Shown: in pieces, positions 11,345 to 19,546 of the stretch | How positions within the stretch are numbered: the stretch's first letter is position 1 | Layout: every line of letters starts with the position of its first letter | DNA from: Aureimonas mangrovi | Lineage (GTDB): Bacteria > Pseudomonadota > Alphaproteobacteria > Rhizobiales > Rhizobiaceae | Length of the DNA: 64,000 bases | Direction: 5' to 3' | Assembly: GCF_014058705.1 (NCBI RefSeq) | Contig: NZ_CP059692.1 | Location: forward strand, 563,001-627,000 | Notes under the pieces: generated by a model | What the model was told of the DNA's origin: nothing | Databases searched by the model: none | What the model saw: only the letters and a program-made list of their open reading frames with translations | Program-made: the position numbers and the translations under genes

Positions 11345-13092
11345 TCAAGCCGCGCGGCCGGCGATGGCGTCGGCGAAGTCCTTCGCCCTGAAGGGCTCAA
11401 GATCGTCGATGCCTTCGCCGACGCCCACGAAGAACACCGGCAGCTTGTGCCGGGCGGCGATGGCGACGAGGATGCCGCCGCGCGCCGTGCCGTCGAGCTT
11501 GGTCATCACGAGGCCGTTGACGCCCGCCACGTTGCGGAAGATCTCGACCTGTTGGAGCGCGTTCTGGCCGGTGGTGGCGTCGAGCGTCTGCAGGACGGTG
11601 TGCGGCGCGTCCGGAGTGCGCTTCTGCAGAACCCGCACGATCTTCTCCAGCTCGGCCATCAGCTCGGCCTTGTTCTGAAGCCGCCCGGCGGTGTCGATGA
11701 TCAGGACGTCCGAGCCGTTGGCGACCGCTTCGTCATAGGCCTCGAAGGCGAGGCCCGCCGCATCCGCGCCGATCTGCTTGGCGACGACCGCCGAGTTCGT
11801 GCGCTCGCCCCAGATCTTCAGCTGCTCGACGGCGGCGGCGCGGAAGGTGTCGCCGGCGGCCAGCGTCACCTTCATGCCGCCGCGCGTCAGCTTGGCGGCG
11901 AGCTTGCCGATGGTCGTCGTCTTACCGGTGCCGTTGACCCCGACGACGAGGATGACGTGCGGCTTCACCGACAGGTCGAGCTCCAGCGGCATGGCGACGG
12001 GGGCGAGCGCCTTCTCCACCTCTTCGGCGAGGATCGTGCGCACCTCCGCGCCGGTGATCTCCCTGCCGAAACGGCCCTCGGACAGGCGGTCGGTGATCTT
12101 CGTCGCGGTCTCGACGCCGAGATCGGACTGGATCAGCACGTCCTCGAAATCCTGCAGCGTCTCCTCGTCGAGGCGGCGCTTGGTGAAGAGCGATGTGATC
12201 TGGCCGGACAACTGGCCCGAGGAGCGCGACAGGCCCTCGCGCAGGCGCTGGAACCAGGGCGTCTGAACGGCCGGGGCTGCAGGCGCGGCCGGCGCCGCCT
12301 CGCGCAGGCGCCAGCCCTCGGCCGGCGGCGGCGCGGGCACGGGCGCAATGCCGGGCGCGGCGGCAAGTGGCGTTTCCTCCATGTCGAGGCGATCGGGCGA
12401 ACCGGCCTGTGGGTCCGCTTCCGGCTCGCCCTCCTCTTCGGGCTCCAGCGGTGCATCGAGCCAGGCGAACTCGTCGCGCCCGCTCTCCTCGTCGTCGGCA
12501 TGCGTATGGGGCTCGCCAGCGGCGGCCGCCGGGGCGATCGCGCCGCCGTCTTCCTCGATCAGCGCCTCCTGCGCCTCGTCCAGGGCGAGGGGCTGCTCTT
12601 CCCCCACGGTCTCGGTCGCGGCTGCGTCCTCGTCGAGGAAGGAAAAATCAGCCTTCGGTTCCTCCGCGGGATCGGCCGGCTCGTCGAGCCAGTCGAATCC
12701 GGGCGAGGCGCCGGTCGGCAAGGCCTCGGACGCGACCTCGTCGTCCGTCTCGGGTGGCAGCGGCTCGTCGAGGAAGCTCGTTCCGGAGACAGTTTCCGGC
12801 TCTGGATCGCTCAGGATTTCAGAGTTTTTTTTTCCGTCGTCGCTCCGAGGGGAGCGGAAGCGGGCAGCGGCTCGATGCCACCTTCGTCCGGCGCATTCGG
12901 GTCCGCGCCGGCTTCGGTGTCCGTGTCGGTCGAGGCCGCCGCCGGGTGGTGAGCGTCGTTGTCCGGCGAGGCCGGCGTCTTCGCGCCGATGTCGGGCGCC
13001 GCGACGAGGTTCTCCTTCTCGGCGCGCCGATCGGCCTCCGGCGCCTGCCCGAAGGAGAAGATGCGACGGAAGAAGCCTTGTTGCTCGGCCAT
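11345..13092 (-). CDS. ftsY: Signal recognition particle receptor FtsY (with -1 frame change)
   Basis: Receptor that docks the SRP-ribosome complex and hydrolyses GTP together with Ffh. The gene reads in two frames. From the ATG at 13092 the first 93-residue frame (start MAEQQGFFRRIFSFGQ) stops at 12811. The FtsY body runs one frame back, from the run of nine A residues (12825-12833 in plus coordinates) to 11345. Joined, they give about 582 residues: a long acidic A domain (to about 275) with four LDEP-like motifs, then the N and G domains with VNGTGKTTT, DTAGRLQ and MTKLDGTARGG. FtsY is essential, so a slippage mechanism or a sequence error is more likely than a dead gene. It is in an operon with dapF and mtaB. 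Confidence 0.9.
12825..12833 (-). other. A9 slippery run in ftsY
   Basis: Nine consecutive A residues on the coding strand, in an otherwise GC-rich gene, at the exact point where the FtsY reading frame moves by -1. The zero-frame codons are GAA AAA AAA ACT, giving an A AAA AAA heptamer. A stop codon follows shortly in the zero frame. Adding one A restores a single ftsY frame. Confidence 0.85.
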
Positions 13093-17606: not shown

Positions 17607-17986
17607 GATATGCGTTTCCTATTCCCCGAGCGGACGGGGAAGAGGCGCCCTGTCCCGCTGAACACAATGCGTCTCACGCTATCGCGATCCGTCGCTGCCA
17701 TGAAAACGCCGCGATGTGAAACGCGCAAGACTGTCCTGGGCGGCCATTCGCGGCCTTCTTGACTTTTTCGGCCCCGTGCGGTTGAAGTCCCGCACACATC
17801 CGCGACCCATGTCCGCGATCCGCCGACCGTGCCCCTCGACGAGAGCCGCACGGAGGCCACCCTCCGCCAGCGAGTTTCGCCCGCGGAGGCGTTCGGCTTT
17901 TGGCGGTGAGCGGCTCGCATCGGACGCGGTTCGTCACCATTCTGACGGGTTCTGGCCCGAACCCGCCGAGTGGAAAGGTATCGCCG
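17607..17986. promoter_or_regulatory. Intergenic region upstream of ffh
   Basis: About 380 bp between divergent genes. No convincing ORF is seen. A TTGACT box near 17759 could be a -35 element for ffh, and GGAAAGG just before 17987 is its ribosome site. I looked for a 4.5S RNA gene here and did not find its conserved loop. Confidence 0.35.
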
Positions 17987-19546
17987 ATGTTCGCATCTCT
18001 CCAGGACCGCCTCGGGTCCATCCTGAACGGCCTCACCGGCCGCGGCGCGCTGTCGGAGGCTGACGTCTCGGCCGCGCTGCGAGAGGTGCGCCGCGCGCTT
18101 CTGGAAGCCGACGTCGCGCTGGAGGTCGTGCGCTCCTTCACCGACCGGGTGCGCCAGAAGGCGGTCGGCGCGGAGATCCTGAAGTCGATCAAGCCGGGCC
18201 AGCAGGTCGTCAAGATCGTCCATGACGAGCTGGTCGAGACGCTCGGCTCCGAGGGCGTGGCGATCGACCTCAACGCGCCGGCGCCGGTCACCATCATGAT
18301 GGTCGGCCTTCAGGGCTCCGGTAAGACCACCACGACCGGCAAGATTGCCAAGCGCTTCACCGAGAAGCAGAAGAAGCGGGTCCTGATGGCCTCGCTCGAC
18401 ACTCGCCGCCCGGCCGCGCAGGAGCAGCTTCGCGTCCTTGGCGAGCAGACGGGCGTTTCGACGCTGCCGATCATCGCCGGGCAGGGCCCGGTCGAGATCG
18501 CGCAGCGCGCTTCGCAGGCCGCCAGGCTCGGCGGCTACGACATCCTCATCCTCGACACGGCCGGCCGAACGCATATCGACGAGCCGCTGATGGTCGAGAT
18601 GGCCGAGATCAAGGCCCGCTCCACCCCGCACGAAATCCTGCTCGTCGCCGATGCGCTGACCGGTCAGGACGCGGTGAATCTGGCCCGCTCCTTCGATGAG
18701 CGCGTCGGCATCACCGGCATCGTCCTCACCCGCGTCGACGGTGACGGTCGCGGCGGCGCCGCGCTGTCCATGCGCGCCGTCACCGGCAAACCGATCAAGC
18801 TGATCGGCGTCGGGGAGAAGATGGACGCGCTCGAGGATTTCCATCCCTCGCGCATCGCCGACCGCATCCTCGGCATGGGCGACATCGTCTCGCTCGTGGA
18901 GCGCGCCGCTGAGAACATCGACGCCGAGCGCGCGGCGGCGATGGCCAAGAAGATGCAGTCGGGGAAGTTCGACCTGAACGACCTCGCCGACCAGATCGGC
19001 CAGATGCAGAAGATGGGCGGGCTCGGCGGCCTGATGGGCATGATGCCGGGCGTCGCCAAGATGAAGGACCAGCTCGCCGGAGCCGGTCTCGACGACAAGC
19101 TGCTCAAGCGCCAGCTCGCCATCATCTCCTCGATGACGGCCTACGAGCGCGCCAACCCCGACGCGCTGAAGCATTCGCGCAAGAAGCGCATCGCGAGCGG
19201 TTCGGGCACTTCCTCGGCCGACATCAACAAGCTTCTGAAGATGCACCGCCAGATGGCGGACATGATGAAGTCGATGGGCGGCAAGGGCGGCAAAGGCGCC
19301 GGCATCATGGGCAAGCTCATGGGCGGGCTCGGCGCCAAGATGGGGATGCCCGGCGGCGGTCTGCCCGGCGGCATGCCCGACCTGTCCAAAATGGATCCCA
19401 AGCAGCTCGAGGCGATGGCCAAGGCCATGCAGGGCGGCGCGGGCGGGGGCGGGCTGCCGCCGCTGCCCCCCGGCTTCGGAGCCGGCGGCGGTCTGCCGGG
19501 GCTCCCGGGCGGAGGCTTCCCGGGCCTTCCCGGCAAGAAGAGATAA
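17987..19546 (+). CDS. ffh: Signal recognition particle protein Ffh
   Basis: GTPase that binds signal sequences and 4.5S RNA and targets ribosomes to FtsY. The 519 residues include the N domain, a G domain with [13 protein letters not shown] (about 107-119), [10 protein letters not shown] and [10 protein letters not shown], and a methionine-rich M domain (about 300-430). The C-terminal 70 residues are glycine/proline/methionine-rich low-complexity sequence, common in alphaproteobacterial Ffh. The ATG at 17987 has a strong GGAAAGG ribosome site and matches the family start [10 protein letters not shown]. It leads into rpsP. Confidence 0.98.

Follow-up and report, generated by a model that had tools for sequence, protein, structure and literature searches.

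An A9 run joining a small protein to the SRP receptor FtsY in Aureimonas mangrovi and its relatives is a probable site of transcriptional slippage

In Aureimonas mangrovi, the SRP receptor gene ftsY is divided between two reading frames that meet at a run of nine A residues, and the same division recurs in related species. From its conservation, we take this run (A9) to be a conserved recoding site and not an error, and we consider it likely, with a probability of about 0.68, that it serves programmed transcriptional slippage. RNA polymerase would slip on A9 during transcription, so that mRNA with nine A would yield a protein of 93 aa, here called X, consisting of a membrane-targeting-like segment and a conserved core, while mRNA with one extra A would yield a 582-aa X-FtsY fusion, the sole source of full-length FtsY. 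The A9 site would in this way replace what in relatives are separate genes for X and FtsY.

Results

ftsY is split at an A9 run

The analysis concerns a 64,000-nt stretch of the A. mangrovi genome (the window), in whose positions all coordinates are given. An earlier note on this DNA had described ftsY as split by a frame change at the A run, with a zero frame of 93 residues from the ATG at 13092 to a stop at 12811, and with a protein of 582 residues once the frames are joined. All of this was confirmed in the sequence (Table 1). Exactly nine A lie on the minus strand between that ATG and the FtsY NG domain, and the downstream frame is -1 relative to the zero frame, with AAC (12826-12824) as its first codon and a stop at 11347-11345. 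The whole feature is 11345-13092, of which 12811-12840 is only the junction. The downstream part scored 311.1 bits against the TIGR00064 ftsY profile, above the curated cut-off of 260.7. The FtsY N-terminus targets the membrane, a function that we presume for residues 1-15 of the zero-frame ORF.

FtsY is essential in well-studied bacteria. A similarity search with an FtsY query detected no second intact ftsY in the one-contig genome of 3,485,124 bases, the sole other match (34% identity) being an ORF that corresponds to Ffh (17900-19546, plus strand). This ffh gene lies in the same window, about 5 kb from ftsY. The whole genome has only three A9/T9 runs, which argues that the one in ftsY is not there by chance; the other two were read as extragenic, one being a terminator-like T9 that follows an ORF taken for ribosomal protein S21, and the other lying between ORFs. 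The window has a GC content of 67%, and apart from A9 no stretch of A or T in it is longer than 6.

Table 1. Features of the ftsY locus in the window.
Feature	Coordinates	Strand	Description	Basis
Zero-frame ORF, 93 aa	12811..13092	-	Membrane-targeting-like N-terminus and small-protein domain X; stop just past the A run	
Residues 1-15 (MAEQQGFFRRIFSFG)	13048..13092	-	FtsY-type membrane-targeting-like segment, common to single-frame FtsY of relatives	
Conserved core of X, residues ~17-76	12865..13044	-	...TDTEAGA...DEGGIEPL	Alignments A2, A4 and A5; dN/dS
Possible hairpin upstream of the run	12841..12856	-	CGCTCC-CCTC-GGAGCG, 7-nt gap to the run	Weak evidence
A9 slippery run	12825..12833	-	Zero frame GAA AAA AAA ACT, includes the heptamer A_AAA_AAA	Sequence
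Third-frame stop TGA	12819..12821	-	A9 CTC TGA; would terminate products of the remaining frame	Sequence
Zero-frame stop TGA	12811..12813	-		Sequence
Downstream -1 frame, 493 aa and stop	11345..12826	-	FtsY acidic linker and NG domain	Sequence, domain profiles
SRP54_N and SRP54 GTPase (NG) domains	11363..12211	-		Pfam PF02881, PF00448

The split is conserved among relatives

We surveyed 110 FtsY loci (30 from 41 genomes and 80 named loci), from which 11 copies were removed; L042, for its part, is a copy identical to L004. In this survey, 33 distinct loci displayed a run of at least 8 A at the place of the junction. Four loci from further searches and one A11 locus (L128) brought the number of run-bearing distinct loci to 38, spanning Aureimonas, Aurantimonas, Jiella, Fulvimarina and Mangrovicella. 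The gene is split in 37 of the 38, including L162, whose contig stops 158 codons past the run, and always in the -1 direction. The run is A9 in 35 of these, A10 in one (L066, Fulvimarina manganoxydans) and A11 in one (L128). Since the A10 and A11 loci align without gaps to their near relatives L062 and L054, the longer runs arose by substitution, with the frame change kept.

The earlier note had proposed a comparison with close relatives, and would have counted single-frame relatives with no A run against its idea. In the 110-locus survey, 12 further distinct Aurantimonadaceae loci are of this kind, but all 32 distinct split loci have nine or ten A (the 12 being L014, L015, L017, L019, L051, L056, L063, L064, L067, L069, L071 and L073, of which L015 and L019 have copies in L047 and L052, respectively). 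No runless split locus was found in the 110-locus survey. The one unsplit run-bearing locus, L055 (Jiella flava, genome G428), has an A9 that is nevertheless in frame with FtsY, and its X core is partly gone. L058, from an uncultured Aurantimonas, is runless and single-frame with X still fused, and its nearest tree neighbors have a split A9. The "A9 split" label requires six changes on a tree built from 57 NG domains.

Sequence around the run favors slippage over ribosomal frameshifting

Slippage by RNA polymerase and -1 frameshifting by the ribosome would both yield an identical X-FtsY junction (...EKKNSE...). In the second case, which we think somewhat unlikely, tandem tRNA-Lys slippage on A_AAA_AAA would produce the fusion, and unshifted ribosomes would make X. 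We therefore give here the features of the site that bear on one or the other, starting with the run itself. Both of its Lys codons are AAA in 32/32 split loci (a tally that leaves out L055 and does not count the five later loci), and the downstream frame of these genes uses AAG 552 times and AAA 42 times, with no A run longer than 6 elsewhere. As the loci in this tally were selected for having the run, what counts most is that no split locus was found lacking it. The codon in which the run starts is GAA in 17/32 loci and CAA in 15/32, so variation is confined to the base outside the run. The A_AAA_AAA heptamer is in the zero-frame phase in 32/32 loci examined, as suits a ribosomal shift. A conserved homopolymer of at least 8 at a frame junction is a criterion for slippage, and 37/37 split loci have at least nine A. 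Since seven would suffice for a -1 shift on a ribosomal heptamer, this excess argues for slippage, as do the two lengthened variants (A10 and A11), in which the split is kept. The direction of the shift points the other way. According to parts of PMC3711429, where this is not a strict definition, a constant direction is a sign of ribosomal frameshifting and a mixed one of transcriptional realignment, and the direction here is -1 in 37/37 split loci, with one further locus in frame. Together with the in-phase heptamer, this constancy counts against slippage.

Stop codons cluster just after the run in both other frames. A stop is found within 20 nt in the zero frame in 75% and in the third frame in 72% of 32 loci, compared to 6% and 7.5%, respectively, at control sites elsewhere in these genes. 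When synonymous codons were resampled, stops within 27 nt were expected in 2.5 loci in the zero frame and 4.5 in the third frame, and were found in 25/32 and 23/32; both frames had one in 20/32 loci as against 0.4 expected, with the reservation that these loci are related and hence not independent. The enrichment of third-frame stops argues against ribosomal frameshifting, and would be understandable if slippage led into each of the three frames.

Downstream of the run, no stimulatory structure was detected on average over 32 loci (mean z of 0.01, for structures other than pseudoknots). A downstream stem-loop or an upstream Shine-Dalgarno stimulator is usual for -1 ribosomal frameshifting but not obligatory, so this result speaks for slippage only to a degree. 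Upstream, the picture is less uniform. A Shine-Dalgarno-like motif of the kind that could assist the ribosome starts 9-14 nt before the run in only 2/33 loci, one being the window, where GGAG starts 13 nt before the run, and the other L020, where the distance is 11 nt. The rarity of the motif counts against ribosomal frameshifting, and its presence in these two loci for it. In addition, GAGG begins 7 nt before the run in 11/33 loci, and L068 has an AGGAGG-like sequence 19-22 nt before it. A stem located 7 nt before A9 in Aureimonas shows apparent compensatory changes (16 sequences, 14 distinct), with 79.8% of cells paired versus at most 47.6% when slid, and over 32 loci the mean stem score at the hairpin distance was 10.2, compared to 3.4 at control positions. 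Tested against a synonymous-codon null, the upstream hairpin reached p<0.05 in only 1/33 loci, and it is absent from many Aurantimonas, Jiella and Fulvimarina loci. Most of its signal can be ascribed to the amino acids and GC-rich codons, and we keep the hairpin as a weak candidate.

Finally, tRNA-Lys(CUU) and tRNA-Lys(UUU) have separate genes, so that both Lys codons are served, which argues for slippage and against the tandem tRNA shift. This situation has been suggested, in the part of PMC5009743 dealing with Thermus dnaX, to maybe favor slippage on A9. The earlier note had listed slippage and -1 frameshifting side by side as options. Both stay as candidates, and the sequence favors transcriptional slippage without being decisive.

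X is a small protein with a life outside FtsY

By its pattern of substitutions, we judge that the zero-frame product X (~90 aa) is a real small protein under purifying selection. In the X region before the run, 11 pairs had dN/dS values of 0.05-0.31 and the twelfth, a near-identical pair, a value of 0; in 11/12 pairs the value was below that of the linker. Between clades (64 pairs), identity averaged 0.45 in the X region, compared to 0.31 in the linker and 0.85 in NG. A profile of the X region (A2) matched not only the fused copies but also short free-standing ORFs of ~74-82 aa, in genomes whose FtsY is without the X region, and a further alignment (A4) delineated a core common to fused and free X (...DxEAGA...GGI.PL). 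In two genomes of the window's genus (G005 and G013), free X retains the membrane-targeting-like start and is identical to the window's N-terminus at 63/76 and 59/73 residues, respectively. These matches indicate that X is a small-protein family in its own right, whose members are joined to FtsY here but stand alone in relatives. The idea in the earlier note that one gene could give full FtsY as well as a short peptide of the A domain was thus close as to there being two products, but the short one is not a mere A-domain fragment.

For the X members scanned, no significant family match was found in Pfam, NCBIfam or PHROGs, no match was found on plasmids, and the predicted fold is a low-confidence model (mean pLDDT of 61.8, pTM of 0.14). 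Beyond the family, X was detected in 3/397 genomes of the order, one of which (G672) is in another family, and in 1/289 genomes of the class, that one being the window's own. A second, weak match in G009 (E of 9.3e-4) was dropped as chance, since it shows no X motif and sits against a long ORF of the opposite strand. The neighbors of free X include no recurring family save a HAD-type hydrolase (ten ORFs beside nine loci, chosen by base composition). In G020, such a hydrolase is the next ORF downstream of both free X copies.

Free X was found in 2/36 genomes with the split fusion versus 15/16 genomes without X in FtsY (Fisher p of 4.6e-10, for species that are not independent), which suggests that split fusion and free X are nearly mutually exclusive. 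The 36 genomes are 16 of the genus, 16 named ones, G077, G172, G226 and G235. The 16 are G005, G011, G013, G014, G072, G118, G200, G208, G232 and the genomes of L051, L056, L063, L064, L069, L071 and L073, with the absence of X from FtsY in G200 and G208 judged from weak partial matches only. This comparison covers neither G017, G428 (L055), G094, G672, genus g65, L058 nor L067. The two genomes with both forms are G010 (L166) and G020 (L165 and L171), the latter with two free copies, whereas G011 lacks the fusion and a free X alike. In G017 (L020, whose gene is identical to L075 of Aureimonas fodinaquatilis), the split A9 is kept with a short N-terminus, the X core is lost and no free X was found. 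G017, G011, G010, G020 and Jiella flava (L055) fit a simple rule poorly.

X and ftsY are also found side by side or in one frame. In other ARRANGEMENTS, X is a separate gene whose end lies 26 nt ahead of the start of ftsY (G084 and G239, loci L206 and L208, genus g65); a third g65 genome, G176, has X, and its ftsY start was not matched within the stretch taken. G094 (L205) and G672 (L204) have the X core inside a single-frame FtsY. Four arrangements are seen in all: an unlinked X, an X gene 26 nt ahead of ftsY, a fusion in one frame and a fusion through A9.

The loss of X at run-bearing loci raises an alternative that would fit either mechanism, namely that recoding is real but X is a by-product, the site being a brake that limits the amount of FtsY. 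We regard this as improbable. G017, which is split, and L055, which is in frame, have lost the X core wholly or partly, and a search of G428 for free X, like that of G017, found none, as expected if only the brake mattered. A by-product would hardly be conserved at the dN/dS values given above, and X has a gene of its own in 15/16 genomes without the fusion.

Could FtsY instead arise by internal initiation past the run, with X a mere overlapping upstream ORF? The g65 genomes, where X precedes ftsY by 26 nt, demonstrate that a two-gene arrangement exists. Truncated FtsY is able to work in E. coli, and in-frame starts follow the run in 33/33 loci. Only seven of these 33 have a Shine-Dalgarno-like motif at such a start; the motif-bearing starts differ in place and are missing in the other 26, window included, so that no conserved internal start was found. 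Moreover, L058 and the single-frame relatives have the same N-terminus on FtsY, and initiation past the run would leave the run, the split and the upstream membrane-targeting-like segment without a reason for being kept, all of which makes this explanation very improbable.

The last option, a sequencing or assembly error (also raised in the earlier note), a recent frameshift mutation or decay, can be rejected, for although homopolymers are error-prone and a one-A indel would look alike in a single genome, the identical split occurs in 37 distinct loci, persists in the A10 and A11 variants, concerns a gene with no second copy in the genome and precedes an NG domain with dN/dS of 0.03-0.11 (12 pairs).

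Discussion

Several known systems resemble the arrangement that we propose for ftsY. In E. coli copA, a frameshift makes the small product. Parts of PMC10187127 describe copA/CopZ as one gene with two protein products, small and large, the small one usually having its own gene, copZ, in other bacteria; unlike what we favor for ftsY, this is ribosomal frameshifting, and in ftsY the shift would make the large product. Two further parallels come from dnaX. The Thermus thermophilus gene shares the sense-strand A9, the two tRNA-Lys and the near stops in both other frames, and it gives two products, tau and gamma, by transcriptional slippage (PMC5009743 and PMC1088944, in the parts concerned). Its long product is zero-frame and slippage gives the short one, whereas the long product of ftsY needs the shift. 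The latter is also the case in Chlorobi-type dnaX, with two ORFs and A7-A10, where the short product ends in the zero frame at the poly-A run (as laid out in parts of PMC3711429 and PMC5009743); the gene is a different one, and its runs go from seven to ten, whereas split ftsY loci have at least nine A in 37/37.

Frameshifting in chlD likewise makes a small and a larger subunit from one gene where others use a separate small gene (parts of PMC9227772), but these are the small and medium chelatase subunits of one enzyme, whereas X is outside the FtsY GTPase. In Blochmannia and Buchnera, frame may be restored at poly-A by slippage (parts of PMC3017870), but these genomes are AT-rich and carry over 100 long poly-A tracts within genes, unlike the GC-rich window and a genome that has three A9/T9 runs in all. 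A search of the open-licence literature on ftsY recoding and on frameshifts in Aureimonas and Aurantimonas retrieved no report of this site, and ftsY is not named in the main text of PMC3711429 or of PMC1088944, nor in part of PMC5009743.

From the features of the site and the history of X, we infer that it is RNA polymerase and not the ribosome that slips, that the cell makes useful amounts of both products and that X acts together with FtsY or close to it. A wider interpretation, which we offer tentatively and hold at less than even odds, is that a slippage site has united the gene of an orphan X with that of the SRP receptor while preserving both products, with X as a partner or regulator whose ratio to FtsY would be set by slippage. 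Membrane-protein targeting could in that case be sensitive to nucleotide pools or to transcription speed. The four X/ftsY arrangements suggest such a role for X, so far unrecognised, with respect to the SRP receptor.

Annotation in a single frame would probably miss a split FtsY or label it a pseudogene. If our reading is correct, a central targeting factor relies on recoding in most sampled members of one bacterial family, and a small protein, X, is linked to the SRP pathway. These bacteria would also offer a natural series for studying how a programmed slippage site arises and disappears: separate genes for X and FtsY, neighboring genes, fusion in one frame, fusion through slippage, and renewed loss.
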